Program-made: the position numbers and the translations under genes
Origin: Thermothelomyces thermophilus ATCC 42464
Lineage: Eukaryota > Ascomycota > Sordariomycetes > Sordariales > Chaetomiaceae
Length of the DNA: 64,000 nt
Direction of reading: 5' to 3'
Assembly: GCF_000226095.1 (NCBI RefSeq)
Contig: NC_016476.1
Coordinates: 3,162,001 to 3,226,000, forward strand
Shown: piece by piece, positions 13,318 to 62,158 of the stretch
Position numbering within the stretch: the first letter of the stretch is position 1
Layout of the letters: every line of letters begins with the position of its first letter
Notes under the pieces: generated by a model
The model's input: the letters and a program-made list of their open reading frames with translations, nothing else
Told to the model about the DNA's origin: nothing
The model's database searches: none

Positions 13318-15605
13318 GAAGAAGATAGTATAGAAGCCTAGGTATAGACATTTTAACTAATACATCTGATAGCTTATATATATATACTCTTATAACTAAG
13401 CTGCTTGATTAGGTTATAGATATTTTAATAAGGATATACTTAGAATCATTTAACTATTATATAGCCACTTAGGATAGGTATAAGCCTTAAGTTTAACTAT
13501 AGCTATAGTTATCCTTAACTATAAAAATATTTATAGGTTATATAATTAAGGCTAACCTCTAGCTAACTAGTTAACTATATTAATACCTAGGCCTAGTAAA
13601 GACTCTAATAATTCTAGCCTCTAGGCCTTAAGTATCTTAAACTAAGATTTTCTATCAGAATCTACCTAGGACTACCTTCTTTAGCTAGGTTATAAAGGCT
13701 TATTAGACTAGGGCTAGAAGCTCTTAATATAACTAGAGGGCTATAGAGTATAGTTTTATTTTTCTAGCTCTAAGAAGCTTTACTATATTTAATAGGTATA
13801 GATAGAAGGCGCCTAGGCATCTAGAGGTACTACTAATAATAAAGACAAAGATATAGAACAACAAGTAATAATAAACACTTCTTTATCATATATATATATA
13901 TATATATATAATAAAGATATAGTTCTTCTTTCTTTTATAAGTTTAGCTATCTTTTTCTATATAAGTAGACTCTTTTATACCTACCTAGAGGGGCATTAGT
14001 ATTATTACCTTTATATCTATTATTATTACTATCTTAGTAGATAGATTTATCTGCTATAACTATAGATACTTAGACGCCCTAGATACTTTAAGCTATTACT
14101 CCTTTCTATCTAACTAAGCAGAGGTTTAGTTTTAGAGGTATATAGCTATATTATAGAGAGGTAGTACTAGCTTATATATTTTTAAGAGCTTAATTAGGGA
14201 AGAGCTTAGCTTTAAGTCTAAACTAGGCTATTAGACTTTAAAAGTAATAGATAGTAATGATAATACTAGAGGAGAAAAGCCAATTATATATAGAAGTATA
14301 TATAGTAAGTCTATTAGGAAAGTAAGAAGGGTAAATATAAGTATTAAGAGATCGGTATATTTAATAGTAGGCTAGGAAACTACTCTTACTCTAATATAAT
14401 AATGCTACTAGTAGAGATAATAAGAATAACAAGATAACAAGTTTAAGGGAGTTTAGCATCTATCTAAAGGGATAGAAACTCTAATATATAGATTAATAAA
14501 GCTAGAACTATTTAGGTTTTAGAAATAAGACTTTAAGATTATAAGGGCATTAGAGGAAAGCCTTACACCTAGTAGTTAGTACTAACTAATTAGTTTAGAA
14601 CTACTACCTATCTCCTAATAGGTAAGGCTAAAACCACTAGACATGCTAATATAGCTAGATATATTAACACTAAATTTCTTATATATTTATATCTTTATAA
14701 ATGGTACTATTAAGTTTACTTACCCTTGTAACAATAGCCTTAAATGGCTATAAATAGTTTAATTATAAACTAGGCTCTAAAAAGCTTAAAAATATAATAA
14801 AATTTAATTCTACCTAGTTATAACTAGTTAAATAACTAGTTATATAACTTGCCTTTATCTTACTCTCCCTCTATATTATACCCCCTATCCCTATCACTCT
14901 TAACACTCTTAATTATAGTAGTACCTTCTCTATTAGCATCCTAGTAATAGTTATTATCTTCTATCCCTAGCGTTACTAATATAGACTTATAGGTACGTCG
15001 TTTTTGAAACCTCCTAATATTCTTAATGATAGCTATATATAGAGACTCCTTCTTAACCCTAGATAGAGATAACAACTTAATATCCTTTTCCTACCTATCT
15101 TTACTATCTATAAAGTTAAATCTATTATTATTACTATTATTAATTAACATTATAGATATATTACTAATCTATATCCTAGGATATTTAGGGGATAGGAGTT
15201 TGACTTCTAATAATAGCTTCTTAGCTAACTAGGGAATTAGGACTTCCTTTTTATCTCCAAAGTCAAAAATTACTAAAAGCTAACGCTCATTTAGTACTAA
15301 AGAAGATTATTATCATTAAGAAGAAGATAATCATTCTTATTAGTCTTTTCTAAGAGTTTAATACAGGTTAGGATATAAAGGTAACGTCAATTAGTACTAG
15401 GAATCTTATTTTCTAGGCCCTTTTTCTAGACTTTATATTCCTCTTTATAATCTTATTTGATCTATTTAATGGTAATATAGGTAGCGTTTTAGCTAATATC
15501 TTAAATAGCCTTAGAACTCTTCTAAGCTTAGATATCCTAAACCTATTAAATCTATTAAATAGTTATACTTATTATAACCTCTCTTATTAGCTTGACAAAT
15601 TAGCC
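13318..15605 (+). mobile_element. RIP-mutated block with a decayed gypsy gag-like segment
   Basis: AT-rich from the first bases after the ILV1 stop, dense in TAG/TAA in all frames. The part at about 13860-14560 matches the reverse complement of about 55760-56430: for example GAGCTTAATTAGGGAAGAGC at 14187 against GGGCTTAATTAGGGAAGAGC on the other strand near 56140. It is therefore a plus-strand relative of the minus-strand gypsy-3 fragment far downstream, in the gag-like part of the element. The flanks at 13318-13800 and 14640-15605 are also RIP-mutated repeat DNA that I cannot assign. A run of TA repeats lies at about 13888-13911. No functional gene. Confidence 0.6.
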
Positions 15606-18600
15606 TATTATAGGACTAGGCTCTACCTAGGATAGACAATACTAGGCTTTACCTAGTACCAGACTAGACCTACCTAGCCTTACTAATATATATACTATTA
15701 GCCTATAGGACGTTTATAATTCGTTTATAACTCGTTTATTAAATATGCCGTTAGGGCCTGGTTAGGGCCCGGCCTAGGACCTAACCAGGCTTACCTAGGT
15801 TATATATATATATATATATTAGGTAAAAGGCACTCCTCTATATAATTATTATATTCTTTCTCTTTTTCCTCTTTGAGGTAGTTAAATAAAATATTATATA
15901 TTTATCTATAGCAGCTATAAGGCTAGTATATTATATTTTAACTATAACTAGAGAGGCTCTGGCATACTTATTAGCATAGCGGTATAGGATAAATAATAAT
16001 AATAATAATAATAATAATAATTTTAACTACCTTCTTATTAGTAGTAGCTTCTCTAAGGGAGCTATTAATAATATAGTTATAGTAGATCTAAAGGTATATA
16101 AGCCCTTAAGCTTAGTAGAACTATAGGAGCTTGTTTTAATACCCTTTAAGTATCCTATACTTAACCTATCCTAACTCCTAACTTAGCTAGGGTACCCCCT
16201 AAAGCCTAGTGGCTATAACGAAAGCGCCTCCTTACTAGATAACCCGTTAATAGTAAAAAGGAACGTTTTAGAGCCTAGAAGAGTATAATAGAGTATATTC
16301 TTATAATAGATAAGGACTTTATCGGCGTTAATTATGATTAGTAGATCTTTATCTAGGGAAACATTATATATTAGGTATAGACCTAAGTTATAGCCTACTA
16401 TAAATATATAGGCCTAATAGTAAGATGTGATCTGATCTAGTTCCTTTAATATCTTAAAAGCATCTTCTCTAACCTTTATAAGAAGATAGTAGCCCTATTA
16501 GAGCTAGGATTCTTATAATAAAGGGATAATAAGCCATTCTCTACTTATATTATTTGGTTTAGGGCTAAGCTATTAAAGGTAGGTAATCTCTTCTAGAATT
16601 ATAAGACATACCTAATTAAACTATAATAATTCCTCTCTTTAAAACTTAAGTATATAGTAATAAGATAAAGAATCCCCTAAGATAACTATATAGTAATTAT
16701 GAAAAAAATACTATAAGATTACTATAGATCTTAAAACCATCTAACTAGGTAATAGACATTAATAGATATAAAAGCTATAGGTAGTACGTAAACTATAGAG
16801 AGAGAAAGATATAAAAACAGATATACTAAGAACTACAATTAACTTAGCTTATATTAACCTATAGAAGAAGCATCTTAATAAGGATAGGGTAGGTAGGTAT
16901 AATAGTAATACCCTAGAGGTAAAATAGATTAACTAGAAAGTATATTTAATATAATAAGTAGCTAGAGTATATATCTAATATAGATAAAACGGCTACTTTA
17001 TTATTGAATATAATTTTACTATTACTATAAGACTAATATAGAAGAACTAGCTAAGAGTTAATATTAATACCTTAGAGGCTAAGGAATAGAAGGAAGATAA
17101 TAACCTATCTAATAAAGAAGATAAGGAGTAGGGAAAAGAGTAGCCCTTAAACAAAGTCTTATAAAGGGGCTAGAAGATTATAACTATATAACAGACGAGT
17201 TTATAAAGATTAATAAAAGAATAGATGGACCTCCTTTTCTTATTCCAATCTTCTTTACCTCTACTAGCTTTATGAATACCTAAGTAGATAATAGATATTC
17301 TTATTATAATATTATTAATAAAAGAATATATTAGAAGCTTAGAATTAGGTAAATTAGTATACTTACTATATATATCCTTAGGATTATAGCTAGGCTATAT
17401 ATAGTCTAAAGGATTACTTAAATAGCTTATATTATAATAGATATTAATAGCTAGATAAGATAGGCTATATTCTATATAGTCCTAGGACCTATATATAATA
17501 TTATATTAGGCCTTCTATAGATAGAGTATTAGAATGTTATATTAGATATATATATAGGTATCCTTAAGATTAGAATATAACTAAGACTATTTATATCCTT
17601 ATAGCTAAGAAGGATAAGAATCTTCTAAATTATAAGTATAATTTTTATAGATATAATATAGAAGATATAGAAGAAGAAGACTTCTAATATCTTCCTAATT
17701 ACTAGTATCTAGGAAATAATAACTATCTTAGAAGTAAAATACTACTATAATAGAGAGGGTATAGAAAGTAGAGGTACCTAGTTAGAGGCTAGTATAGAGC
17801 TAGAGATTATCTTACTAGATAAACTTTATAATTTTACTAATCTCTTTAATAAGGTGAAAGCTAATTAACTACCTCTATATTATAATATAGCTAATTACTA
17901 TATTATATTAAAGGAGGGCTAAGATAGAAAGACCTCTAAGCTCCCTTAGGGGGCTCTCTATAATATACTATAAGATTATTCATTAGAGATCTAAAAGTAA
18001 GTTATTAACTTATTAGATAAGCGATAGATCTAAGCTAGTTCCTTATTAGCTATTACCCTTATCTTCTTAACAAAGAAGGTAGATAAGGGATAGAGGTTTT
18101 ATATTACTTAAGATTATAAAGTAAGACTAGTATCCCCTATTACTTATTAAGGAGATATTCTATTCCTAAGTTAGAGCTAAGTAATTTATAAAGTTAGATA
18201 TCTAGGTAGCCTTTTACTATATTTAGATTATAAATAGTAATAAGTATTTAATAATATTTTAGACCTAATTTAGCCTCTTTAAGTAGCCTATCCATTCCTT
18301 TAGACGTATAGATATACTTATAACATTTTAATAATATATTAATAATATCTTTAGCTTAATATTTAGAGACTTTATAATAATATACTTTAAGATTATCTTA
18401 ATCTATATTATAGGTAATAAGTCAGATTATTTAAAGTAGATAAGAGATATATTCTAAAGATTATAGAAAGTAGGACTTATATTAGATGTTAAGAAATATA
18501 TATTTATTATAAAAGAAGTTAAATAACTTGGTTATATTATTAAGGTAAGGGCCTAGATCTACCTAGATCTTAAAAAGCTAGCTGCTATCTATAAGTAAGA

Positions 18601-19310
18601 GGTACTATAGAAGGTTTAGGGAGTATAGAGTTTCCTAGGGTTTATAAACTTCTATTAAGACTTTATCTCTAACTTCTCTAAATTAATTATACCTTTAATA
18701 TAGTTAACTTATAAGAATAGCTTATTTTAATGAGGGATAGAGGAATAGGAGGCCTTTTAAAGCCCTTAAGATAGCTTTTATATTAGAATCTATTCTAATA
18801 TAATAGGATCCTAAATAGGAGATAGTACTTAAGATAGATTACTCTAAGATAATATTAAAAAGGTGCCTATCTTAATCAGGAGGAGATAGGGCCTTATGCC
18901 CTATAGCCTATTATTTTATAAAGCTAACCCTAGCTAAATAGAATTATATAATCTATAATAAGGAATTACTTATAATTATCTTATATTTAAAGGCCTAATT
19001 AGCTAAGCTTTATAGTATTATTACTCCCTTTTAGATTCTAACTAATTATAAAAACCTTATATACTTTTCCTAGCCTTATTTAATTAGTAAATAATAAGCC
19101 TAATAGGCTAAAATACTATCGCTCTTTAATTCTAAACTTTATTATTAACCTAGATTATAAGTATTCTACCCTAATAACTTATCCTACTATAAATAAGACT
19201 ATCTTAAAGATATATAATATATAATATAACTCCTTCCTATTATTTAGATAAATATAGTAAACACCTTAACATTACCTAAAGTATCCTATTTACGAATAGG
19301 GAGTACTATT
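15606..19310 (+). mobile_element. Gypsy-1: RIP-degraded Ty3/gypsy element, 5' LTR to RNase H
   Basis: Starts TATTATAGG, which aligns with TGTTATAGG at the start of the second copy at 58844 (TG changed to TA). The LTR-like part runs to about 16040 and is interrupted by a 76-bp LINE fragment. The internal region encodes broken pol: the reverse transcriptase begins near 18033 (ASSLLAITLIFLTKKVDKG in one frame) and an RNase H-like region lies near 19027-19200. Stops are frequent in all frames. No 3' LTR is visible, because LINE-1 starts at about 19311. The second copy at 58844-62158 aligns throughout. Confidence 0.75.
15945..16020 (+). mobile_element. 76-bp LINE 3'-end insertion with target duplication
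   Basis: The segment holds AACTAGAGAGGCTCTGGCAT and ends in AAT repeats, the same 3' end as the long LINE copies near 27400 and 55330. It is flanked by TTTTAACTA at 15936-15944 and 16021-16029. The related gypsy copy at about 59170-59185 has no insert and a single TTCTAACTACC, so it serves as the empty site. This is an extreme 5' truncation of the LINE. Confidence 0.85.
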
Positions 19311-21170
19311 TTTATAGATAGATGGCTTACAGCCTTATAGGATAAGGGAAAAAGAGCATCCTCTAAAAAAAAACTTCTCCTATATCTTCGCAAATACCCT
19401 ACCAGAATATACAAAACTACCATCGCTAGAAAGCTCTCAAGAGACGCTACTTAACGATACTACTTTCAACCACGCACAAGCCGTTATAGCTATATAATAG
19501 GCACTATAAGCATAGAAACCAGACCTAACTATAATCTAACTGTACCTCGTATACCTGTCAAAACTTTCATTATATAGACTACCTAACACCCCTAAATATA
19601 ATGTTAATTTAAAGCCTACTACTAAGCTACTAAGTAGGGAGGCCTATAGCTTTAAACTAATTAAAGGGTAGCCCTCTATAGGCCTCCCTTACCCTAGGTA
19701 TTAAGGAATTTAGGGGTCTTATTACTTAACTAGTTAACTTTATACTAAGCCTTAAATAAGGTAAGGTATAAGACCTTATTAATAGGCTCTTATAGGGCCT
19801 TATAATTACTATTATAGGCCTAGTTCTAAACCTATAGGAACTTATAGCTAAGGAAGTCAAAAAGGGGCTTAAAGAAGCCTTTAAGGCTACCCCCTACCCT
19901 ACCTAGGTATAGGTAGTTATAGGTTTATAATAGGGGGTAACAAGTCCCTAGGGAGGCCTACTATTAGCTAAAGTAGTACTATTATAAGCCTTATAAGAGG
20001 TTATAATATAGAATATAAACCTATAGAAAGACCTTAAGGCCTATACCCTAGCTAAGATAATCTAAGTAATTAATAAGGCTTCTAGCTACTAAAGAGCTAT
20101 TATAGCTAGGAAGCTCCTAAGTAGGGATATTATAATAGTCTTTAAAGATAAGGCTAGTAAGGATTAGTATTTAGCTAATAAGCAATAGATAGCTATATAG
20201 CCTTTAGAGAGTAGGCTAAGGAGGTTAATAAGGCCTATATAGTCTTAGTTAAAGGAGTCTAGAAGGAGGAGCTATAGGGGGTTAGTAAGTAAGACTTTAA
20301 GGGAGTAATAGGCCTATAATTAATTAAAATGGTTAAGTTCTAGCTATTAAAGAGCCTATAAAGGATATAGGCTATAGTATTCCTAGGCTTATAAGACCTT
20401 AAAGAGGCCTAGAAAGCCTATAATAAGGGTATAGTCTAAGATATTTAAGTATTAGATTATAAGCGTTATTAGGATACCCTAGAGCTAAGGTAATATTATA
20501 GGTACTAGAGCTTTAGCTATATCTAGTAATATTATTAGTAATTAGCTTATTATAGCTATTATAATATAAAGGCCTATAGGGAGGAAGGGAAGACTAGAAA
20601 GCCCTAGTACCTTACTTATTCTAATTAGCTCCCTTATAGGTATATAGCCTATAAAGGCCTTTATATAGCCTAATATAAAGGCTACCTAAAGAAAGTCAAG
20701 GCCTAGGAAAGGGCTAGGGAGGCCTACTAATATAGACCTTAAACCTTTTAACTATTAGAGTAGTTATACTAGAAGGTAGCCTTTAAGTTTAATAACTAGC
20801 TAGATAACAATAATTACTATTAAACTAAGGTTAAATACCCCTATAGAAGGCCTACCCTAGCCTAGTAAGTAGCTAGGAATACCTTATTTAATACCTAATA
20901 GATCTATATTTCCTTTCTATAGCTTAGAACCCCTTCCTCTTTATAATTAGCTAAGGGGGTAATAGCTATATAGCCTACTATTATACCCTTAGGCTCTACT
21001 CTAGCTACCTTAAATATAAATTAAGATCTTCTAATAGAATATCTAAGGTAATAAATAGGCCTTTAAGGTCCTACTAAAAAAAGCTAAATATAATCTACTA
21101 GCTATCTAGGAGCTATAGATTAACTAGTTTATAAGGTTAATATATTACCTTAAAGCTTTAAACTACTACC

Positions 21171-21180
21171 TAGTTTATAA
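21171..21180 (+). repeat. Left copy of 10-bp target duplication (TAGTTTATAA)
   Basis: LINE sequence directly before the GC-rich island. The same ten bases stand after the island, while intact LINE copies have the site once (51984, TAGTCTATAAGCC; about 57509, TAGTTTATAAGCC). Confidence 0.85.
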
Positions 21181-21181
21181 A

Positions 21182-22567
21182 CAGGAGCGCCTCGAGCGCA
21201 GGTATCCCACGCCCCACGAGTGGACCTTCCGGACGCGCATGGACTTCCGTGGCGGCAACTGCGCGAGGTTCGAGCCTTCGCCGGGAAAAATCACAGACTG
21301 GCAGCAGGTTGCCTGGTGGTTTGAGACCACGGTCAAGCGGCTTGAGGATCCCAACATTGACGGGCAGGGCGTAAAGGATGCTCCGCACGAGTACCCCCCC
21401 GGGACCAAGGATGTGACGGCAAAGTCGGAGGAGTGGAGGAGAGGATACTACGAGGCCATGATGGGATATGCCAAGGCAGCTGAGCACATGGACGGTTGGG
21501 TGCTCGATAAGTCCAGGAATATTGTCTTTCCTCCGGGAACCATGATCGGGCCGTCAAATCCCTTCCCCAAGCCACTCCCGCCGGGCTTCAAGGGCGCGCC
21601 GCGCGAGGAGGACTGCGAGCTGCGGTTCGAGTCCCCTGATGCCATCTACCTGCGCATCCTGTCCACCCCCGGGTTCACAAATCGTCAAAAGATCGAGGCC
21701 GGCCTGGCTTACGGTTCCTGGCTGGAGTACAAAGGCATCAACGGCCCGGCCAGCGTCATCCTCGAGGATGCCGTGAACCTCGCGGCCTCCGAGCGGCCAG
21801 GCCTGCCCGCCGAGCCCCTCGACAAGAAGACCTGGACCCTCAGCGAAGCCGCCGGTCTCCCTTCCGAGAACCTCCTCAACGCTCTCACAGCCTACGCCAC
21901 CTTCCGCGCCCGCCAGGGTGCCCTCGACTCCGCCCTGCCCATCCTCGTCTCCATCCTCAAAGCCCGCCGCAGCCTCCCGCCGCCCACGGCCCACTCCTCG
22001 TCCTCCTCGAACTCCATAACCGCTGCCCTGAACAGCAACAATAACAACAACAACAACAACAACGGCAACGGCAACGGCAACAAGCCCGCCGGGGCCCGAT
22101 CAGCAGGCATCTGGTCCACCCTCACGGCATTCCTCGCGCCGCCCCCTTACCCCCCACCCCCGCCAGACGGCACCGCCCCGCCCACCCGCGACGCCCTCGA
22201 CCTCTGCCAGGAAGCCGCCCTGAGCCTGCACATCGGCGAGATCTTGTACGCCTCCTCCCCCGGCAGCCGCGAGGAGGGCCTCGGCTGGACGCGCGAGGCC
22301 GTCGACGTCGCCGAGGAGCAGCTGCACCAGCTGCCGCAAAAGGCCACGCGGGACAGCCCCGCGCGCGCCGCCTGCCGCGAGTGCCTCGCCACCGGCCTGG
22401 GCAACTGGGCCGCCAAAGTCGGTCATAGTCGGTTCTGGCAGCTTTCTGGCAGCCGACGCAACCTCGAAAACCCGAAAACCCCGTTGGTCAGCGGGATCCG
22501 CAAGAGATTCGCGGTATTGTGCGGCCTGCTTCGGCTTCTGGTCAGGAAGCATATCGCTTGGCTTTGA
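21182..22567 (+). pseudogene. 5'-truncated coding sequence of an uncharacterised fungal protein (TPR-like)
   Basis: An open frame of 461 codons runs from the island's left edge, beginning at a Gln codon; the first ATG is at 21239. Residues before that ATG (QERLERRYPTPHEWTF) look as coding as those after, so the true N-terminus is missing. The sequence resembles a family of uncharacterised fungal proteins with helical TPR-like repeats: NRQKIEAGLAYGSWLEYKGI and LLNALTAYATFRARQG are typical helix pairs. A low-complexity stretch of Ser and then Asn (AAC repeats at about 22032-22063) and Pro runs follow, then a second conserved part ending LATGLGNWAAK at about 22417. After GTCGG at 22418 the frame reads as random sequence to the stop at 22565-22567, so the natural C-terminus is also lost. 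Function unknown; I recognise the style of the family, not a named gene. Confidence 0.65.
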
Positions 22568-22614
22568 ATGGGTCGTTTCTCATCTGCAGCATGTACTCGT
22601 AGAAAGCTTCAACG
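22542..22614 (-). other. Possible terminal exon of an unidentified minus-strand gene
   Basis: On the minus strand, after a plausible 3' splice site (CACTCCAG), the frame reads VEAFYEYMLQMRNDPFKAKR and then a stop. The composition looks coding, but I cannot name the family and no upstream exon is clear. It converges with and overlaps the end of the plus-strand frame. Confidence 0.25.
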
Positions 22615-24029
22615 CTGGAGTGTTGGGAGTGGGGGTGGCGTGCTTGACGGGGTCCTGCGCTGATCCATCCGCCGAACGAGAGCAATGTCTTGGCATAATG
22701 CAACACGCCAAGGAAAGGGAGCCTCCAAAGACGACTGCGCAAAGCCTCATTATTCTCACAAGTCGTCTATTGTGGTTAACGTTACCACACTTGCGGACTC
22801 TCCACGTAAGCCGTCCAATCAATGAATGTACACTACGGTGCTCATCGGACAACGAGAAGGGGATCAGAGATCTACGAGTGGGTCGAGCGCGAGAGAGAAG
22901 AGACCGACTAGTTTTTTTCCCTCTTCCTCTTCTTTTCAGTTCCGCTCCCTCCAACGCTTATTATGAACAAGTACACACATACATACCTCTTGACCATCAG
23001 CAGCCTAAGTCATTAGTGTAGGACCCCTGGTATTGGGTACATACCTACATACAGTACATACACTACGCAGCACACAATAACGAGCAACGTAGCCACTGGA
23101 AGAGTGATGTCTGAAAGGTGGTAGAGCGTCCTGTATCAATGGAACCTTAACCAACTTCTCGGGCCCGGCAACAACGAGTCGAGCCGCCGGAGTACGTCAG
23201 ACTGTGAAACCGCCTCTGTTCGCCTTGCAAAGGTCTCAGTGAAAAGGGCTAATAGGTACACGACATATGCATCGCATGCGATCTATATACGCGTATATTT
23301 TTCTCTCGTCGTCCCTCCCTCTGACTAACGCTGGGAGGGAAGAGGGGTGAAGGAGGAGGAGGGAAGGGAAGGGAGGGGCGGGGAGGGGCCGGAACCCATC
23401 GACGAGAGTAAAAACTTGGGAGGGACCCGTGCCACCCCTCCCATCCGGCGTCGTACTCGATCTCATCTCGCTCATGATCCCAGCACATCCGAAGCACACC
23501 GCCCCGCCTAGCGAGCGTGATGTCCGCCCATCTCTCTCAGGCCCCAACCCCCTCCCCTACACACGGTGCGTTTGTGGATGCTTACCGCCTCCCCGGTAGC
23601 GAGATGGTATATGTATGTATGTACATACACGCTCTGTACAGAGGCAGTGTGTGCGGGTGTGTGAAGCGTTGCATACCGGTATTGTGTATACCCGAATTTG
23701 TATGTACCTTCTCTGGACCCGGGCTGGTTCGACCCATCGCCGTGTGGTTTTTCGTAAGCCCCACAGGAAATCCCACGAGCTCACTCATCAACGACAGGCC
23801 ACGCGAAAGCTGGCCTCGTCAGTGACGGCCAGGCGCCACGGCGGGGTCAGAGCCAATCAAGCATCCTGGGACACTTGCTTCGACCTCTGTCACACCGATT
23901 ATCCCTCTGCCTCGAGACATTGTCAAATCTGAATCAAACGTGGGTAGAAATGAACTGTGTTGATTCTCCTGAAATCTAGAACTTTGACTTAAGCGAGGGT
24001 AAAAGAATATGTGTTCAAGAAAACAACGT
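22615..24029. other. Non-coding remainder of the island
   Basis: GC-balanced, without a supported gene. Contains ACATAC-type microsatellites (about 22972-23062 and 23612-23630), a purine-rich tract (23333-23390) and short open frames without domains. If the island is a reverse-transcribed RNA, this would be 3' untranslated or read-through sequence. Confidence 0.45.
23333..23390 (+). repeat. Purine-rich tract with G-quadruplex pattern
   Basis: Nearly pure G/A on the plus strand; 23361-23388 has six G-runs of three or more separated by one or two bases. Confidence 0.7.
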
Positions 24030-24063
24030 AAAAAAAAAAAAGAAGAAGAAGAAGAAGAAGAAG
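24030..24063 (+). repeat. A12 plus GAA-repeat tail of the island
   Basis: Twelve A (24030-24041) then seven GAA units and a G. Lies two bases before the right-hand target duplication. Confidence 0.85.
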
Positions 24064-24065
24064 TT

Positions 24066-24075
24066 TAGTTTATAA
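24066..24075 (+). repeat. Right copy of 10-bp target duplication (TAGTTTATAA)
   Basis: Continues directly into GCCTAAGGATAAAGTAGC, the LINE sequence that follows this site in LINE-2 (51994 onward). Confidence 0.85.
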
Positions 24076-27000
24076 GCCTAAGGATAAAGTAGCTATTCTA
24101 ATAGTTAAGTAATTCTTAGTTAACTAATAAGACTATTTAATAGAGAAAAACTAATATAGGGTAACCTTTCTAGCCTTAGGGGAGAGGGGGTTTAAACTTT
24201 AGTTAATCTATAATAATAAAAGGAAGTAGGCCTTTTTATAAGACCTATTAACCTTACCCTAGCTATCTTACCCCTAAGTTCTTATAGGTAACTTTAACCT
24301 TTACTACCTAGTCTAAGACCTATTTAATAGGCTTAGCCTAGGGGCTAGGGACCTCCTTAGCCTTATATACTAGTAGGACCTTAATCTATATATACCCTAT
24401 AGCTAGGTCACTAGGGCCCCCTAGGGGGACTAACGTAGCCGGCCTTCTATAATAGACCTATTCTAGGCCTTGACTAGGCTAGAAGCGACCTATAGAGATA
24501 TTATAAAATATAGGAAATCTAACTACTACCTATAGGCCCTAAATATTTCCCTCTAGGGGACTAATAGGCCCGTACTAGCTAGTAAAGGGTAGGACTAGAA
24601 GAGCCTAGATAAGGAGGTCGTATAGGCTAAGGCGGCCTACCTCCTACTCTAGCTTAGTAGGTAGGTATCGGCCCTGGCCGGGCCTATCTTCCGGGGCCTA
24701 GAGGAGCTTCTATAGGCCTTTGACAGGCTTATAGAGGCCCTCGAAGAGATAGCTATAGTCTTAGCCCCGGCAAAGAAGGCTAGTATAGGTGGTAAACGAG
24801 CTTAGTAGTAGACAAAGGAGGTTCGAGAGGCCTGGAAGAGGGCTAAGGAGGTAGAGAGGGCCTATAGGGGCACCCTAAACCCCTATATATAGGAAGCACT
24901 TCGGCAGGCCCTATAAGACTAGGCTAAGACTATTATAGCTACAAAGACTAAGAGCTAGAGGGCTACGTTATAGGAGGTAACTAACTAGCCGGACTTATTA
25001 TAGAGACTAGAGTAGTAGGTAAGGCTATAAAGCTACCTACTAGTTAACCTTCTAAAGCTCCCGGCCTTCGAAGGAAGGCTTATAACCTACTAATAGAAGG
25101 CTAGAGCACTAGCCGATAAGTTCTTTCTAAACCTAGAAGTAGACCTATTAGATATTGACGACCTAGATCTAAACGATTACTAAGAGCCAAAGTTCGAAAT
25201 AAGCTAAAAGGTTATAGTAGGTAAAGTTAAGGTAGTACTAGCTAGGGCGGCCCTATAGAAAGCCCTAGGGGAGGACCTCTTCCCTATAGGTCTATTAAAG
25301 GCCTATAGGTAGCCGCTCTACCAGATATTAGCAAAACTAGCCTTAGAGAGCCTACGGCTTGGCTGTTTTCCGGCCTGGTTTAAAAGGGCTAAAATAGTAG
25401 TCCTCTATAAGCCTGGCAAACCCCTATAAGCCTACTTTACCCTAGGTAGCTATAGGCCTATAGCGCTCCTACTAATAGTAGGCAAGGTATTAAAGGCTAT
25501 AGTCGCTTAGAAGGTAACGGCTATTATAGAGGCCTATAGGCTTCTCCTGGCTAAATAAATAGGTAACTAGGAATATAGGTCTATAGAACTAGCTATTCGG
25601 CTTATTATAGCTTAGGTCTAGGAGGCTTAGAGGTATAAGGCAGCTACCTCCCTCCTATAGCTTGACATCTTAGGGGCTTTTGACACTATTAACTATACCT
25701 AGCTATTAGCCACTTTACAGAGCTAGGGCTTCCCAAAGTAGGTAGTAGTCTAGGTTAGGGAGTAGCTATAAGATAGGGTAGCTATCCTTTACTTTGATAG
25801 TTAGGAAATAAAGGATATAGTAGTAAGGGTTAAGGTCCTATAGGGGTTACCCTTCTCTCCTATACTATTTATCTTCTATATAGCCTCCCTTTACTAGGTT
25901 ATTTACTAGGCTAGCCCTATAGTTAGTCTAATAGGCTTTACTAACGATACTAACCTCCTAGCCTTTAGGAGGGCTAAGGAGGCCTATAATAGCTAGCTAT
26001 AGAGGGCCTAGAAGGCCTACCTTTAGTAGGCTAGGACCTAGGGTATAGCTTTTGCCCTAGAAAAGTACGAGCTTATCTACTTTAATAGGGGTTAGAAATA
26101 GTAGTTATAACTACTAGAGCTCCAAGGGCCGGGGGGGGGTCCATTACTATAGCCTTATTATAGTCGGCTAGATTCCTTAGGGTCTAGCTAGACTAAAGGC
26201 TATAATAGGGCCCTTACTATATAAAGGTAGCTAAGAAGTTAGAAACCTAGGAGTTTGCCCTAACTAGGCTTACTATAAAGACCTAGGGCCCTAGCCTCCT
26301 ATAGGCCTATAAGGTCTATACTAAGTATATCTATAGTGCCTTAGCCTATAGAGCCTCGAACTTCTATAAGCCTACTAAGCCAGGGGGTAAGCTAAAAGGC
26401 CCTATTAGGGAACTATTAAAGGCCTAATATAAGGCCCTTTAAGTAGTTACTAGGGCCTATAAGGCTACCCCTATCTAATGCCTCGAAATAGAAGCCTAGG
26501 TACTACCCCTCGACCTTTATCTTAACAAGAGGCTAGCCGACTTTAAAGCCAAACTTAACTAACTACTCTTATAGACTAGGGCAGGTCTAGGGGCCTCCTA
26601 GGTCCCTATAAGGGCTCTTATCTAATAGGCCTATAATAGGCTAAGCTAGAGGTTCCAGAAGAGAAGGGCTAGGGCAAGGGGCTAGGAGCTGAAGCCTATA
26701 GCCCTAGAGGTAGCAAGGTTAACGGTCCGGCAGTAGGTTTAGGAGGGCTGTAGAGGGGGTTAACCCCCCCTATAGACCCTATAAAGAAGGCTACAGGCTA
26801 CGGAACTAGCCGTATTAGCTAGCTAGAGCAACCGTTAGAAGGCCGACCAAGCCGGTAGGAGGATATAGCACGTATTAGATAAGGACCCTCTACACCTAGT
26901 TTTTAAGGGGAAGGCCTATAAAGGCACTAGGGCCTAATAAAGGCCTAGAGCTCCCTATTAGTATAGGCCTATATAGGGGCTATTAGCCTCTGTAACTTCC

Positions 27001-27463
27001 TTTTTAGGGTTTAAGTCCCAGGGGTCAGTACCCCCTACTATGCCTATAGCTAGGGGAGGGAAACTATAGAGTACCTAGTCGTATAGTGCCCGAACCTACT
27101 AAGAAGCCGAACGTAGGAACTCTGAGAAATACGGTCGTAAAGGGACCTAGACCTTGTTCTACGGGGTATAGGGACCTGTAACTATCGTTTGGCAAGGAGG
27201 GTTCTATAGTGGCTAATAGACCTAGGGAGGCTCCCGGAATATTGCCTCGTAAGGAGGCTAGACCGGGAGGGAAGGCCTTTATAGGGCTATTCTAGCCACT
27301 TCTCCTTTTCTTTATAGTGTATTAGTACCCTGGATTAGGCGTTAGAGGCGGGACAGAGGTTTTTATCCGGCCTATTAGGCACGGTTTCCTTTATATATAA
27401 CTAGAGAGGCTCTAGCATGCTTATTAGTATAATGGTATAGGACTAATAATAATAATAATAATA

Positions 27464-28756
27464 CTATATTATTAAGGCTCTAGGTATATCATTAGCTATA
27501 CTATTTAACTAGTAAACTAGGATAAGAGTATCTATTTCTATGATAAAGTATACTAAAGAGGTACTATTAGAAATACTTTAATAGGAAAAGTAGTCTATAG
27601 AGCTCTCGTTTAGTAAGGTTATACTATTTCTCTGCCTTAGACTATATCCTACTCTTAAATTAGTATAGGTATCTCTTCTCATTAGGGCCGACTTATTTAA
27701 TAACTCCTCCCTAACTAAAAAGACTTATATTAGTCATTAGGTATATATATCTAACTATACCTAGGGTTATTAAAAATAAGTAGTATAAAGACTAGGGTAG
27801 TGGTTATTTAGGTTTAAAGTTCCTTTATAGCCTACTATTAAGTAGGGCCCTATTCCTAATAGGTATTCTTCTTTATTAGGTTATATAATAGCTAAGTAAT
27901 GATAGTAAAGTGCTTTATTTAGATTTAGTAGTGGCTAACAATCCCTAAGAAAGTATAAATATCCTTTAAATCTAAATAAGCAATTTACTTAAGGATTTTT
28001 ATAACTTTAATATTATTAGGTAATCGCCCTTTAGGTATATAAAGGTAGCTAAGTAATACTACTTATAGTTAGCACTATTAGGATTTCCTAGCTATAATAG
28101 TAACTCTAGTAAGTTTAGCGTTTAAGAGAACTATATTAACGTTTTAGAGATATTTAACTATAAACTTTTATAACCTAAGGATAACTTTTTCCCTATTATA
28201 GTTAGACTATAGCCCCTTTATATAGATATTATCTAGATAAACACGGTAGATATCTAGAATCAGGTTCTAAAAGATCTAGGTCATTACTTATTAGAACTAG
28301 GCAATAGAGTTTATTCTACCTATAGGGAGGGTATATATCTGGAAAAGGCTAATAGGCATTTAAAAGGTAATAAGATCCTGGCTCTATTTATTAAAGCTAA
28401 CTCAGTTATATCTAGAAAAGAGGTCTAAGAGGGAGATAACTTTATAATCCCTAAAGTCCTTACTAAATTCCTCTATAGCTAGTAGTATAAATATATCTTA
28501 TATAGTTATAGTATTAGCTTTCTAGGTATTATTAATTAGCTAGAGACTATTATTCTTTTTAAGAATTAAAAACTAGTTATTATAGTAGCTCCTATAGCTA
28601 GGCTTAATAATCCTATATTAAACCCTCTACTTTAGAAGATTAATAACCTTTAATATTAATAGCTTTAAGATAGAGATACTCTTTAATTACTATATTATAT
28701 AGGGAATAGTCTGGATAACCTAAGGGGGAATAATATTAGGGTAAATCTACCTATAT
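27464..28756 (-). mobile_element. Gypsy-3 fragment with reverse transcriptase (minus strand)
   Basis: On the minus strand about 28600-28100 reads as broken gypsy reverse transcriptase: EEFSKDFRDYKVISLLDLFSR is the spacing of the fungal EEFAxxFxGxxxxSLxDFFSGYDQ region, followed by LDNIYIKG where LDDIGVKG is usual (Asp to Asn, a G-to-A change). It lies between the 3' end of LINE-1 and the 3' end of LINE-5. The segments at 48918-50144 and 55389-56615 are probably upstream parts of the same or a sister element, now separated by nested LINEs. Confidence 0.6.
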
Positions 28757-36878: not shown

Positions 36879-37330
36879 TGTGACAAACCTAGCTTAGACT
36901 GCTTCTAAAAGGGTTTAGACAAAGGTAGATTAAGCAGGACAAATAGGTAGGTTGTCTAAGGGATTCGGTGAAGCCAAAGGGTTTATAACAACACTAGAGT
37001 TATCTCTTACAGTAATTAGCAATACTTAGTATAAATACTATAATTATAGGTTACTATCACTAGTAAACTCCCAGAGTCTACTATAACGAGTGACTATTTA
37101 CATGTATATATACTTCTGTCGATCGCTTATAGTCCCCTTCTATCCTGTCCTTGGATCGCCTTTGGTAGCTAGCTATCCTCTGCTATCTTTCCCTTTTGGC
37201 AATTGTTCGCCCGTGGTAGCCCGCGCTCCCTAGCGATCCTATGTTAGCCTCGCTTCGTGCCCTTCTTGATTGGTGGCTCATTTAGCCTGCTATACCCCAC
37301 CGGGTCGCGGTATATGGTTGGCTCGTGACA
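36879..37330 (-). repeat. E1 right LTR (5' LTR in element sense)
   Basis: 452 bp, less mutated than the left copy (keeps CGCCCGTGGTAGCCCGCGC where the left has more TA). Begins TGTGACA, ends GTGACA on the plus strand. Confidence 0.9.
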
Positions 37331-37496
37331 TAGTACCTAGGCTTCCATTTTAAGGCACTAGATAGGGGTAGCCTTATAGGCCCTAGTAACTACTTAAAGG
37401 GCCCTATATTAGGCCTTTAATAGTTTTTTAGCAAGGCCTTCTAGCTTACCCCCTAGCTTAGTAAGCTTATAGAAGGTTAAGGCCCTATAGGCTAGG
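37331..37496 (-). mobile_element. LINE-5, middle segment (156 bp plus duplications)
   Basis: Contains the right TAGTA duplication of E1 (37331-37335), 156 bp of LINE sequence, and the left CTAGG duplication of E2 (37492-37496). Confidence 0.85.
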
Positions 37497-37856
37497 TATT
37501 ATAAACGCAAGCCGACCTGTGCCTACGGCCAGGCTGTGGCGGCCGGAGGGCCCACGCCTAGGCACTAATAGGTATAACCCTGCTATGACAGGCACGATCA
37601 GAGCATGGCCGGGGAAAGGGGATAGCCAATCTATAGTATAAGATATATCTATTAGCCTACGGATCCGAAAGGGAGGTTTTCCTCCCTAAGGATTAGTCTG
37701 TATAACTACGATTCGAGTAGGATACGAATAGGTAGCTGCCGGCCCTAGAACAATTGACTCTCCCTGCCCCTGTGATTAGTACGAACCTGTTTAGAAAGGC
37801 CTTTATAATAGTACTACCTCTCTTAATAACTAGCCTAATGGTAGGCCGCCTTGACA
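37497..37856 (+). repeat. E2 left LTR
   Basis: 360 bp, starts TATTATAAACGC, ends CTTGACA. The differences from the right LTR that I can see are all transitions. Confidence 0.9.
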
Positions 37857-39769
37857 GTTTCTGATCCTTCCTACCCTTTGTTAATTGAGATGGTACCGTC
37901 ATTTAGCCGTTTAACGCCTGTAGGACTAGAGGAAGAGCCCTTGAGCTAAAGCGAGACCCTTTTAGCCTAGTATTAGCCACGAAACCATTCTAAACCCCCC
38001 CCTTTGCGTCCTAATACCCCCTGATTCGGAGCCCTTAGTATAAGGCCCTGACTATGAAGAGCTTATCTGGAATTTAGAAGGCCGGGTTAAGGAGCTAGAA
38101 AGGCTATAATAGCTATAAGACTAGGAAAAATTCCTATTAGAGAAGCTAAGACTATTAGATTATATAAAGGCCTCGAAACGACCCTAATTACCTATTAAAT
38201 CCTTTAATTCTAATGACTTAGGATATTATTCTAAGGCTATTAAGGTTACTAATCTAATTTGATTTACTAATATAATGACCTACTAATAGTAGTAAGAGTA
38301 GCTCTAAGATTTATAATACGCTTTTTAGAGAGACCTTAAATGTTTTAAAATATTATAGAATTATATCCTATTTACGTTTAATTATATAGATAAGCAACTT
38401 TAGAACCGCTAGTATAGTTATTATTAGAATGTACTACCTAAGGAGCGTAATTAGCTAGAAAATAACTAGACTCTATTTAAAGAATAGACAAACGCTTATA
38501 TAATTAACCTTATAGACTAGGTATCTTAAGTAGCCAAGGCTTTAAATTTGGCCTATTAATAAAATGGTTAATCCTTATAGGATCTTTACTATTACCTTAA
38601 ATCCCTTAAAGCTTAATTTCCCTATTAAGATAAGAAAAGCTAAGCTTTAAACTTTTATACTAAGCTATTACCTTTCCTTATTTAATATATCGACTATTAC
38701 TATACCTACTGCCTAGAAACGCGAGAAGGAATAGTATAGTTAGTATTATAAATCTAGTATAGCTTCTAATGACCGAATCATAGTTAGACTACCTCCTTTT
38801 CGCTACTAATTCAAGATTAACTATATTATATACCTAATATATTACGTTTTCGTATATTATCGTCCTACTATTAAACCGGACCTATGACAAAGCTATAACC
38901 GGCCCTATAAGGCACCCTAAACCTTATATTAACCATTACTCTAAGGATATAAAGTAGTAGCTTATATTTCCGATATAGAAAGGAGGGACATTTTATAAGA
39001 GAATGCCTAGAAACGGTATAGGTTACCTCCTACCGATAGGGCTAATACCCTAGTCGCTAAGGTTTAGGCCGTTTTCGCTAGGGAAACAGGAGTCGCTCAT
39101 AATAGACCTTGATACCATAGGAATGGCTATAGGGGATGACCTAAAAAGGGAGCATATATATATAGCTATCATAATAAATGTATATAAAGGCGTTTCGACG
39201 ATAGCAGACCTAGATTCTTATATAGAAGTAAATATTATAGATTTCGACCTTATTTAGAAATACTAACTAAAACGACTTACTTATATTCTACCTATAATTT
39301 GATAGTTTAACGAAACAATTATAACATCCTATAAGGTATATCAAGTACCGATTATACTAACTAATAAATATAGAACTATATATCAATATAATTACCCTTA
39401 TATTAAGCTATAAGGCCGAAACCTTGTTAGTCTTATTAGGAATGCCTATACTTAGCGATCTTACTATCTTATTATTCCTAATAGAGAATCGCTAATAGTT
39501 TCTACTAGAAACTAAGATAGCCTAACTTTAGCACCTTAAAAGAATGGAAAAGGACTGCTAAAGGGGAGTCAAGGTCTTTATATTAACTACTATTTCGGAT
39601 GTCTCTATAGATCTATTCCCTAACGAGGAAGAACCGAAACCCTTAGGAAGCCTAGAAGAAATTCCCCCTAAGCTATAAGACTTCGCTAACGTAATAGATA
39701 TAACAAATTCGAGTATCCTTCCTTTGTTTAAAGTAACTAATTATAAGATCGATCTATAACCGGGGACGA

Positions 39770-44008: not shown

Positions 44009-44505
44009 CTTTAATAGCGCTATATAAGCACTATATATATAGTAGTAAGTCGGCTATACTAAGTTACTAAATCTCTATAATATTACTATAGATACAAAAA
44101 TAAAGATTTAAAATTTGAAAATTAAATTATAGGCAGCCGAAGAGCGAACGATATAAGGAAGATAAGATTAAAGATTAAAAGAAAATCGAGAGCGAAAGGT
44201 AGCCTTCTAAGAAAGTCAAATATTATTTCTATCGCTATAATAAAGACCTTCCCAATACTACGGTAACCACTGGATATATTTATAATAAAGCGAATCTTTA
44301 GACAAAAACACTCGAATAGTAACTATAATAATAGTAATATATATACGAAAACAAAGGTACCTAGTACCTACCTATTCTATATATAATCGTAAACAAAGCC
44401 GTAATAACAAAGCGCCAAAACAATGGCGATCTGCCACCACGTAATAAAGCTATTCCAATAGAGCCTATAGGCCTATAGATAGGCCTGCTAAGGGGGAGAG
44501 TAAGT

Positions 44506-44865
44506 TATTACAAACGTAAGCTAACCTATGCCTACGGCCGGGCCGTAGCAGCTAGAGGGCCTACGCCCGGGCACTAATAGGCATGACCCTGCTATAACGG
44601 GCACGATCGGGGCACGGCCGGGGAAAGGGGATAGCCGATCCGTAGTATAAGATGTATCTATTAGCCTACAGATCCGAAAGGGAGGTTTTCCTCCCTAAGG
44701 ATTAGTCTATATAACTACGATTCGAGTAGGATACGAATGGGCAGCTGCCGGCCCTAGAATAATTGACTCTCCCTACCTCCGCGATTAGTGCGAACCTGCT
44801 TAGAAAGGCCTTTGTGATAGTGCTACCTCTCTTGATAACTAGCCTAACGGCAGGCCGCCCTGACA
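44506..44865 (+). repeat. E2 right LTR
   Basis: 360 bp, starts TATTACAAACGT, ends CCTGACA, followed by CTAGG (44866-44870), which also precedes the left LTR. Confidence 0.9.
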
Positions 44866-47800
44866 CTAGGGCGCTATAGATATACTTAGTATAGACCTTA
44901 TAAGCCTATAAGAAGCCTAGGCCTTAGGTCTTTATAATAAGTCTAGTTAGTGTAAACTCTTAGGTTTCTAGCTTCTTAACTACCTTTATATAGTAAGGGC
45001 CTTATTATAGCCTCTAATCTAGCTAGACCCTAAGGAATCTAGCTAACTTTAAAGGGGTTATAATGGTAATACCCCTTTTAGGCTATAGGAGCTCTAGTAG
45101 TTATAACTATTATTTCCGGCCCCTATTAAAGTAGATAAGTTTATACTTTTCTAAGGTAAAAGCTATACTCTAGGTCTTACCTACTATAGGTAGGCCTTCT
45201 AGGCTTTCTATAGTTAACTATTATAGGCCTCTTTAGCCTTTCTAAAGGCTAGAAGGTTAATATTATTAATAAAGCCTATTAAACTAACTAGAGGGCTAGC
45301 CTAGTAAATAGCCTAGTAAAGAGAGGCTATATAGAAGATAAATAGTATAAGGGAGAGGGGTAACCCTTATAGGACCTTAGCCCTTATTATTATATTCTTT
45401 ATTTCCTAGCTATTAAAGTAAAGGATAGCTACCTTATCCTATAGCTAATCTTTAACTTTAGGAAGCCCTAGCTCTATAAAGTAGCTAATAGTTAGGTATA
45501 GTTAATAGTATTAAAAGCCCTTAAAATATTAAACTATAAGAGGGAGATAGCTACTTTATACCTTTAAGCCTCCTAGACCTAGGTTATAATAAGCCAAATA
45601 GCTAGTTCTATAGACCTATACTCCTAGTTACCTATCTATTCGGCTAGGAGAAGCCTATAGGCCTCTATAATAGTTATTACCTTCTAGGTAACTATAGCCT
45701 CTAATACCTTACCTACTATTAGTAAGAATGCTATAGGCCTATAGCTACCTAGGGTAAAGTAGGCCTATAGGGGTTTACTAGGCTTATAAAGGACTATTAT
45801 CTTAGCCCTTTTAAACTAGGCTAGGAAATAGCTAAGCCATAAGCTCTCTAAGACTAATATAGCTAATATCTAATAAAGCGGCTACCTATAGGCCTTTAAT
45901 AGACCTATAAGGAAGAGGTCCTCCCCTAAGGCTTTCTATAAGGCCGCTCTAGCTAATACTACCCTAACGTTATCTACTATAACCTCCTAGCTTACTTTAA
46001 ACTTTAGCTCCTAGTAGTTATTTAATTCTAGGTTATTAATATCTAATAGGTCTACTTCTAGATTTAGAAAGAACTTATTAGCTAATGCCCTAGCCTTTTA
46101 TTAATAGGTTATAAGCCTACCTTCAAAGGCTAGGAGCTTTAGAACGTTAATTAGTAGATAGCTTTATAGCCTTACCTACTATTCTAGCCTCTATAATAGG
46201 TCTAATTAGTTAGTTACTTTCTATAGTATAGCTTTCTAGTTCTTAGTCTTTATAGCTATAATAGTCTTAGCCTAGTCTTATAGGGCCTACTAAAGTACCT
46301 CCTATATATAAGGGTTTAGGGTACCCCTATAGGCCTTCTCTACCTCCTTAGCCCTCTTCTAGGCCTTTTAAACCTCCTTTATCTACTATTAAGCTCGTTT
46401 ACTACCTATATTAGCCTTCTTTACTAGAGCTAAGACTATAACTATCTCCTTAAAGGCCTTTATAAGCCTATTAAAAGCTTATAAAAGCTACTCTAGGCCT
46501 TGGAAAACAGGCCTAGCTAGGGCTAATACCTACCTACCAAGCTAGAGTAAGAGATAGGCTACCTTAGCCTATATAATCTCCCTATCTAGGCTCTTTTAGT
46601 CCTACCCTCTATTAGCCGGTATAGGTCTATAGGTCCCTTAAAGGGAGACCTATAAGGTTTATAGATAATAGTTAGACTTCCCCTATTCCATAATATCTCT
46701 ATAGGTTACTTCTAATCTAGCTAAGGCCTAAAATAGGTCTATTATAAAAGGCCGGCTATATTAGTCCCCCTAGGGGGCCCTAGTAACTTAGTTATATAGT
46801 ATATATAGGCTAAGGTCCTATTAGTCTATAAGGCTAAGGAGGTCCCTAGCCCCTAGGCTAAGCCTGTTAAATAGGCCCTAGACTAGGTAGTAGAGGTTGA
46901 AGTTACCTATAAGAACTAGGGGGTAGGTTAGCTAAGGTAGGGCTAGTAGGTCCTATAAGAAGGCCTGCTCCCCCTTATTATTATAGACTAACTAGAGCTC
47001 GAACCTCCTCTCTCCTAGGGCCAGAAAGGTTACCTTATATTAGTTCTCCTCTGCCGAATAGTCCTACTAGTTAACTAGAAAGCGCATAGCCACTAGAATA
47101 GCTACCTTACCTTTAGGCTTATAAACTAGGTAGTATTTCAAGGCCTAGAGATAGTATATTAACCCTATAAACCAGTTAATCTACGGTTCCTAGATAGCTA
47201 ATAGGTTATATTTAGCCTCCTCTAGTAGGACCTTAAGGGCCTATTTATTACCTTAGGTATTCTATTAAAGGATCTTAATTTACATTCAAGGTAGCTAGAG
47301 TAGAGGCTAAGGGTATAGTAGTTAGCTCTATAACTACTACCCCCTCGGCTAGTTATAAAAAGGAGGGGGTTCTAGGTTATAGAAAGGAAATATAAGTCTA
47401 TTAGGCATCGAATAAGGCGCTCTTAGCCGCCTATTAGGCTAAGGTAGGCCTCTTATAAAGGCGTTTAGCCCTAATTTAATAGTAATTGTCATCTTCTAGC
47501 TAGTTACTAAACTCGAAGGCTACCTTCTAATATAATTATTCTAGTAGTTAGACGGTTTAGGGTCTATACTAGTAGGCCTCCTTAGCCCTTTCCTAGGCCT
47601 TGACTTTCTTTAGGTAGCCCCTATACTAGGCTATATAAGGGCCCTTATAGGCTATATACTAGTAAGGGAGTTAGTTAGAGTAGGTAAGGTATTAGGCCTC
47701 CTTAGTCTTCCCCCTCTCCCTATAGACCTTTATACTATAGTAGCTATAATAGGCCGGCTACTAGTAGTATTATTAAATATAGCTAAAGCTCTAATATCTA

Positions 47801-48917: not shown

Positions 48918-50144
48918 CTCCCTTCCCTTTACTAAAAATTACTTAAAACTAATTTCATAGATAAGCCTATCATAGATATCCTCTACTAGGACTAGATATC
49001 TATAGGCAAAGTATATCTAGTTATTATAATAATAATAGCTATAAGGTATAATTAAGGTTAAACTTAGCTAGAATATATTACTTTTCTTCTTTTACTAAGA
49101 CTCTTAAGTAGCTAATAGGTAGGTCTAGATCTCCTTAGTCTTGTCATTACTTAGGTTATCTATCTAGTTTTAAGAATACCTACCCCTATCTAAGGATTTA
49201 TAGCTAACTTTGCCCTTATTAATCTAAAGCTTATATAAGGCGTCTATAAGCCTATTAATAATCTTATTAAAGGTAGTATCTCTCTAAGTAGATAAACCTA
49301 AAGGACTTTTCTATATTTAGAAAGCTAAAGGACGTTTCTTAATAATCTAGCTTACCTATAGTTTAACTTCTCCTCCTTTTATATCTAGCTTATAGTATAC
49401 CAACCTAGTATTAATACCCTTATATAGATACTCCTATATAATATTATAAAAGTCTTCCTACTCTATATTATTAACTTATAAGTTACCCTTCTTATAGACC
49501 TAAAGATTAGTCTAGAGAGTAAGGGAAAATCTATCCTATACCTTCCAGATAGCTAATAACTAATAGACTACTTTCTTTTTCTTTAATACTTAGGTAAGTA
49601 AGATATTAATATACTTTAGGTAGTTATAAATAGACTTAGCCAAATCTATATACTAGGAATTTAGAAGATATTCTAGCTCTTAAGTAGAGGTTTCTTAATA
49701 AAAGTTATTTTACTTCTAATATTCCTTAATAGTAGCTTTAAAAATAGTCTAGTCCTTTTTCTTTAACTCTAGCTACTAGTTAAGAATCTCCTAAAGGTCA
49801 TCTATATATTATTACTTAAAATAAGAGATCTTATTAATATTATCTCTATTAAAGATTTCATAAGCCTTTATAAAATACTTAAGGTACTTAGTAGTATTAT
49901 AACTAGAGAAGAGACTAGGTAATCCCTTATTTATTAATAAAGGGAATATAACCTAGATAACCTTAGTAAGTTTATCTACTATAATATCTACTTAAATATG
50001 ATATTTAACTTCTAAATCTAAAGTAAGGTTTCTAAACTCTAGTAATTAAGGTAATTCTAATAATATCCTTCCTAATAAGGTTTTAATATCTAGATATCAA
50101 AGATATTAAAAGTAGCGATTCTAATTAAAGTATTTATTAAACTA
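48918..50144 (-). mobile_element. Gypsy-3 segment between LINE-5 and LINE-2
   Basis: RIP-mutated DNA with gag-like broken frames on the minus strand. Its right end (TATTTATTAAACTA, 50131-50144) is the left target duplication of LINE-2 and continues, across LINE-2, at 55403. I assign it to the gypsy-3 element by that continuity. Confidence 0.5.
50131..50144 (+). repeat. Left 14-bp target duplication of LINE-2
   Basis: TATTTATTAAACTA, identical to 55389-55402. Confidence 0.8.
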
Positions 50145-55388: not shown

Positions 55389-55402
55389 TATTTATTAAAC
55401 TA
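55389..55402 (+). repeat. Right 14-bp target duplication of LINE-2
   Basis: TATTTATTAAACTA directly after the AAT tail. Confidence 0.8.
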
Positions 55403-61800: not shown

Positions 61801-62158
61801 AAGTAATAGGTATTATAAAAGGTTTAAGGAGTATAGAGTTTCCTAGGGTTTATAAACTTCTACTAAGACTTTATCTTTAACTTCTCTAAACTATACCCTT
61901 AATATAGTTAATTTATAAGAATACCCTATTTTGACAAGGGACTAAGGAATAAGAGGACTTTAAAGCTCTTAAGATAGTTTTTATATTAGAACCTATCCTA
62001 GTATAATAGGATCCTAGATAGGAGATAGTATTTAAGGTAGATTACTTTAAGATAGTATTAGGAAGGTACTTATCCTAATAAGGAGAAGATAAAGTCCTAT
62101 ATCCTATAACCTATTATTCTATAAAACTATCCTTAGCTAAATAGAACTATATAATTTA
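58844..62158 (+). mobile_element. Gypsy-2: second copy of the Gypsy-1 family, 3'-truncated
   Basis: Starts TGTTATAGGCCTAGGC with an intact TG end. The LTR-like part runs to about 59180 and lacks the LINE fragment found in Gypsy-1. Broken gag, then reverse transcriptase from about 61235. Ends in RNase H where LINE-4 begins (about 62158); the matching place in Gypsy-1 is about 18957. Confidence 0.78.

Follow-up and report, generated by a model that had tools for sequence, protein, structure and literature searches.

Two host donors in one insert bracketed by a 10-bp duplication within a RIP-degraded LINE of Thermothelomyces thermophilus

How did ordinary host sequence come to lie within a dead LINE of Thermothelomyces thermophilus? 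Reverse transcription is usually regarded as proven where a target-site duplication occurs together with an A-rich end and a truncated 5' end. The insert described here shows all three of these marks, yet it stems from two host loci, of which one is intergenic, and its tail is encoded by the donor. The insert (bases 21181-24065, 2.9 kb) lies in a window of 64,000 nucleotides, the whole stretch of DNA analysed (C5:3162001-3226000), and had been read in a preliminary description as one host transcript copied into the LINE by target-primed reverse transcription.

The insert and its two donors

The resident LINE (plus strand, 19374-27471) is split by the insert into two parts, 19374-21180 and 24066-27471, which align at 85-87% identity to an uninterrupted copy of 5,192 bp at 50206-55397. 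It has been heavily degraded by RIP, with TpA/ApT of ~1.9-3.3 and (CpA+TpG)/(ApC+GpT) of 0.06-0.40 in the 500-base steps that lie wholly inside it. The ten bases TAGTTTATAA are found at both 21171-21180 and 24066-24075, forming an exact duplication that brackets the insert, as seen by direct reading, by comparison with other LINE copies, and by alignment to the uninterrupted copy, which places the two breakpoints at 21180 and 24066, sharing exactly 10 bp. In 11 of 11 LINE copies examined at the site (three within the window and eight elsewhere, the eight being chosen for matching the right flank) ACC/ACT-TAGTTTATAA-GCC is unbroken, with no or one change within the ten bases, and the probability of a 10-bp match by chance at the local composition is ~1.5e-6. 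The GC content of the insert is 59%, versus 23-36% on the left (13501-21000) and 35-49% on the right (24001-27500), in 500-base steps. In these respects the preliminary description, which had the LINE cut and resumed by the same ten bases at 24066, the site crossed without a break by other copies, and the 2.9 kb in between of normal composition, is borne out, and the insertion into a dead LINE is real. Between the duplications and the copied sequence stand one filler base on the left (A, 21181) and two on the right (TT, 24064-24065), foreign to both donor and target.

A search of the fungus's own genome (38,744,216 bases in 7 contigs) with 21150-24100 returned 38 matches. Apart from the locus itself and two long matches, these are short and hit either the LINE flank or a trinucleotide stretch of the first piece; a second copy of the whole insert was not among them. 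The insert thus consists of two unrelated host pieces placed end to end, piece A from C1 and piece B from C5. Neither donor locus has been lost, which makes the pieces copies. A single retrocopy of one gene, and with it the earlier proposal of one host transcript, is rejected by these two donors on two contigs, while the broader claim that host sequence was copied into the dead LINE with a target-site duplication, after RIP of the LINE, holds.

Piece A (21182-22415, plus strand) is a copy in sense orientation of G000:C1:6381693-6380460 (minus strand), with 0 differences over 1,234 bp, and spans codons 99-509, together with one further base, of a gene that encodes a 588-aa protein. It is cut within the coding sequence at both ends, such that codons 1-98 and everything after codon 509 are missing. 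The insert had been described as starting in mid-codon; it does start in mid-gene, but on a codon boundary. Since the reading frame of donor A is uninterrupted and piece B is intergenic, there was no intron available to lose. The donor A protein has 729 relatives at E<=0.001, the named ones among the 120 listed belonging to filamentous fungi, and no Pfam domain was found in it; some records of its relatives bear the label "MFS maltose permease", which is a record name alone. Among the relatives listed, the closest is a Thermothelomyces heterothallicus protein that is 99% identical and differs in several residues and in the length of an NG repeat. As the insert is identical to donor A while this protein differs, the copy should be younger than the split from T. 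heterothallicus. The RIP indices of piece A are 0.44 (TpA/ApT) and 1.32 ((CpA+TpG)/(ApC+GpT)).

Piece B (22416-24063, plus strand) is a copy of G000:C5:2634419-2632771 (minus strand) over 1,648 bp, from which it deviates by 13 point differences and the absence of one A, and has indices of 0.89 and 1.00, respectively. Its donor lies ~550 kb from the insert on the same contig as the window. A phosphatidylserine decarboxylase gene lies on the opposite strand, and the donor segment begins 187 bp past its stop codon. The segment covers a stretch without a recognised gene, ahead of a frame whose match to Zn2Cys6 is weak and falls below the cut-off. The longest frame of piece B, which extends 99 bases beyond it, gave no Pfam match and has 0 relatives among 648 candidates, so that a conserved gene within the piece is rejected, and neither the insert nor the surroundings of the donors matched a known structured RNA (Rfam) or a tRNA. 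Judged by these searches, piece B appears to be intergenic, with neither a gene-like nor a known-RNA signal.

The join between the two pieces is blunt (donor A ...GCCGCCA|TGG, donor B ...CTCCG|AAG), with no bases in common and no duplication. As the list of open reading frames and the donor boundaries show, the intact 461-codon frame that had been taken for a single gene (21182-22567, plus strand) is a chance fusion of ~411 codons from piece A with ~50 from intergenic piece B. It does not represent a known protein: among the best 120 of 129 matches, which are relatives of donor A, coverage is at most 94% and none matches at 100%, and nothing points to its expression or annotation.

The 3' end of the insert does read A12(GAA)7, as reported (24029-24063, plus strand, the run starting at ~24029). 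Comparison with the donor shows that it was copied from A13(GAA)11, such that an added poly(A) tail is rejected. The donor tract in which piece B ends reads (TTC)n and then T13 (C5:2632763-2632821; L010 4264-4322), ~180 bp past the phosphatidylserine decarboxylase stop codon. Within 75,000 bases of ordinary DNA, A- or T-rich tracts like this one take up 164 (~0.2%), the donor tract counted in. Because such tracts are rare, the end of piece B inside one is probably not random, and internal priming or repeat fragility may have placed it there.

Mutations acquired after the insertion

All 13 point differences in piece B are C:G>T:A changes that occurred in the insert; donor B carries none of them. 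Ten of the 13 fall at CpA/TpG, where 25% of the C:G sites lie (p=1.2e-4). Changed C:G sites number 0/821 in piece A versus 13/873 in piece B (Fisher p=2.5e-4), and changed CpA sites alone 0/143 versus 10/218 (p=0.007). Furthermore, all of the changes are concentrated in the central part of piece B, at 22768-23609 (p=0.003 over C:G sites, 0.011 over CpA sites), and the parts of the piece to the left and right of it keep their 48 and 65 CpA sites unchanged. This pattern points to RIP. Leakage of RIP from the LINE is rejected as the sole cause, because piece A, which adjoins the LINE, and the LINE-side stretch of piece B are clean. Plain decay of methylated cytosines is unlikely, given that 10 of 13 changes are at CpA and none is in piece A. 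The insert had been described as free of RIP, either escaping it or arriving after it; the changes in piece B contradict the escape, and the insertion did follow RIP of the LINE, but preceded a later, light round that hit piece B.

Ordinary RIP mutates both copies of a duplication. The changes seen here resemble it in being C:G>T:A, mostly at CpA, and in lying in a duplicated stretch of the insert, but they differ from it in being light, limited to the middle of one half, and present in the inserted copy only, the donor being clean. A clean donor B would fit a cross that joined the mutated insert with an unmutated donor allele, or chromatin-dependent handling. Linkage of duplicates favours RIP, and the contrast between the linked piece B and the unlinked piece A is, at this locus, a single case. 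According to PMC11969663, a cross in Neurospora leaves about half of the unlinked duplicates free of RIP, so that the escape of piece A needs no special cause.

The identity of the donors and the junctions can be read directly, as can the duplication, the empty site and the pattern of mutation, and we are highly confident of the anatomy of the insert together with the order of events, in which RIP of the LINE was followed by the insertion and this by a later, light RIP round. If RIP needs sex, RIP changes after the insertion would mean that the lineage had sex after it. The species is described in a paper on a sister species as being without a functional sexual cycle.

Routes to a two-part insert

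We prefer, with a probability of about one half, the reading in which copies of two distant sequences filled a staggered break that end joining then sealed. A break with overhangs of ~10 nt would have arisen in the already RIP-degraded LINE and would have been patched from two distant host copies, the C1 gene (A) and the C5 intergenic stretch (B), the patch being captured as DNA or cDNA during repair. The two pieces would have been joined to each other without common bases and to the target via the one- and two-base fillers, as non-homologous end joining leaves them, while fill-in of the overhangs would have produced the 10-bp duplication. Later the duplication of B would have been lightly RIPed in the inserted copy and that of A spared.

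Break repair is favoured by the two donors on two contigs, the intergenic nature of piece B, the internal cuts at both ends of piece A, the blunt A/B join, the short fillers, the donor-encoded tail, and the fact that no complete LINE was seen among the candidates scored. In addition, induced breaks in Magnaporthe oryzae captured other genomic DNA, coding sequences included, as reported in part of PMC9684475. On the other hand, three of the four M. oryzae junctions given in that part have 2-3 bp of microhomology, and there is none here. The end of piece B in an A-rich tract would then be explained only by repeat fragility, and both the sense orientation of piece A and the 3' position of the A-rich end are as retrotransposition would give them. 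Human class 2 templated insertions also count against break repair at this locus, since they are attributed to break repair, are described in the relevant portion of PMC5110952 as being without a target duplication, and are argued by its authors to be RNA-derived patches.

Target-primed reverse transcription with a template jump, yielding a chimeric retrocopy, is a real possibility, if one at less than even odds, and the data do not decide between it and break repair. A LINE enzyme would have nicked the dead LINE and primed on the internal A13(GAA)n of a putative non-coding B transcript, copied 1.65 kb of it, jumped to a fragment of the A mRNA and copied 1.23 kb of that. Such a course would account for the 10-bp duplication, for an A-rich 3' end that falls in a rare type of tract and for the sense orientation of piece A, and it has a parallel in the Magnaporthe chimeric retrogenes, which are flanked by repeats of 10-20 bp and whose jump points lack microhomology (PMC2104539, in the sections consulted). 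The duplication also begins with TA, like five of the nine clear resident-LINE duplications as printed (six of nine when one A that may derive from the tail is not counted); the base rate is 18%. By contrast, piece B is intergenic, and piece A, unlike the 5' portions of the Magnaporthe chimeras, is not a full-length RNA copy. Moreover, the GCC|A/T motif of those chimeras is not present at the jump site, CTCCG|AAG, and the tail is donor-encoded. Of the original proposal the target duplication therefore stands, whereas the added tail and the single transcript fall, and the process is conceivable only if priming took place in a GAA tract of genomic origin and the enzyme then switched templates.

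The habits of the resident LINE weigh in the same direction. In 16 of 16 near-full-length copies, taken from the best 29 of 426 candidates plus the copies in the window, the 3' end is (TAA)3 or more. Nine of these have duplications of 13-16 bp with at most one mismatch, five have none that is clear, one has an exact 10-bp duplication (15 bp with one mismatch), and another has 12 bp with one mismatch. A 10-bp duplication is thus unusual for this LINE, yet allowed. The insert lacks the signature of the resident LINE, having neither a (TAA)n tail nor a 13-16-bp duplication. The uninterrupted copy (window 50131-55405) is itself bounded by an exact duplication of 14 bp, TATTTATTAAACTA, and carries a tail of the (TAA)n type.

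A complete LINE as a source of the enzyme was not found among the best 150 of 1117 RVT_1 candidates. Six of these 150 have LINE-like spacing: five, relatives of the LINE 3' half, are interrupted by 9-13 stops, and the remaining one belongs to a frame of 312 aa within RIPed DNA. All five Exo_endo_phos_2 matches contain 4-7 stops. Of the same 150 matches to RVT_1, 30 fall within open frames, 1264 or 1287 aa long, that occur as near-identical copies genome-wide; one such element that was read (L047 430-3483) is Gypsy LTR-like by eye and without RIP. The elements of this group probably spread once RIP was no longer effective.

Two separate events, with B inserted first and RIPed and A added beside it later, are improbable. 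They would explain why piece A has 0 differences and piece B 13, a contrast that holds at CpA sites alone. However, one duplication flanks both pieces and none lies at their join, which leads us to infer a single event. Moreover, RIP treats each duplication separately and about half of the unlinked ones escape per cross, as set out in part of PMC11969663, so that one event suffices.

A DNA transposon with a 10-bp duplication, which was excised and its gap filled ectopically or which carried captured host pieces in the manner of a Pack-MULE, is very improbable. Mutator-like elements typically have duplications of 8-11 bp and captured gene pieces, as found here, and the one- and two-base extras resemble footprints. 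Nevertheless, terminal inverted repeats are absent from the insert, only 3 of 25 end positions agreeing, no other copy of the insert exists in the genome, and a six-frame search of the genome for the MULE transposase domain (PF10551) gave 0 matches, a search that a strongly RIPed domain could escape. An artefact of assembly or cloning is hardly credible, for although chimeric joins of two loci are typical of such artefacts, an exact 10-bp duplication brackets this chimera and an artefact does not create 13 changes of one kind relative to the donor.

If break repair is the correct reading, the locus may have a wider meaning, which we put forward only tentatively. Patchwork repair of staggered breaks in heterochromatin with host DNA from different chromosomes, accompanied by a duplication, could give rise to natural two-part duplications in fungi with RIP. 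One contiguous insert would have been read by RIP as two, the half with its donor on the same chromosome being mutated and the half from the other chromosome spared, with the linked donor untouched and no spread from the RIPed LINE. The insert also serves as a built-in control for RIP, in which two fresh duplications are adjacent and one is mutated while the other is not, and it is informative about the way RIP recognises and delimits its targets and about a possible role of linkage. The order of LINE death, insertion and a RIP round is found in an industrial fungus described as asexual in the above sense, and cryptic sex, if this reading is true, would be dated after the insertion.

Relation to known systems

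No other island of this length and with ordinary RIP indices was found in the AT-rich DNA of the window and of C1:4440001-4640000, of which ~155 kb is AT-rich. The three other GC-richer islands in the window (36900-38100, 44380-44960 and 62150-62850) were rejected as similar inserts, being pieces of multicopy repeats; the one at 62150-62850 belongs to the reverse transcriptase region of the LINE. The AT-rich part of the C1 region contains ten small islands, of which the one searched is multicopy over the first 365 of its 601 bases and three more coincide with matches of the window-island searches. Among the entries listed from the open-licence literature, a scope outside which most subscription journals lie, none describes a fungus with RIP in which host sequence from two donors forms one insert flanked by a duplication.

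The nearest counterparts in a filamentous fungus are the chimeric retrogenes of Magnaporthe grisea (MINE and relatives), which, as presented in the portion of PMC2104539 drawn on here, likewise join two unrelated sequences without microhomology between flanking repeats of 10-20 bp. Their 3' part is usually a LINE or SINE, their 5' part is a full-length RNA copy, and their jump sites follow GCC|A/T, whereas the insert contains no piece of a mobile element, both ends of piece A are internal, the motif is absent, and piece B is intergenic. Human templated sequence insertion polymorphisms of class 1 are also copies of distant sequence, with intergenic donors allowed and with a target duplication. 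In the account given in part of PMC5110952 they carry 10-40 untemplated A after a polyadenylation signal and sit at TTTT/A sites, while the insert has a donor-encoded tail and two donors joined. Finally, the human class 2 insertions and the capture of DNA at breaks, as far as the corresponding parts of PMC5110952 and PMC9684475 describe them, share with the insert the untemplated bases at the junctions, the intact distant donors and the absence of an added poly(A). Class 2 differs, in the same part of PMC5110952, by having no target duplication, where the insert has an exact one of 10 bp.
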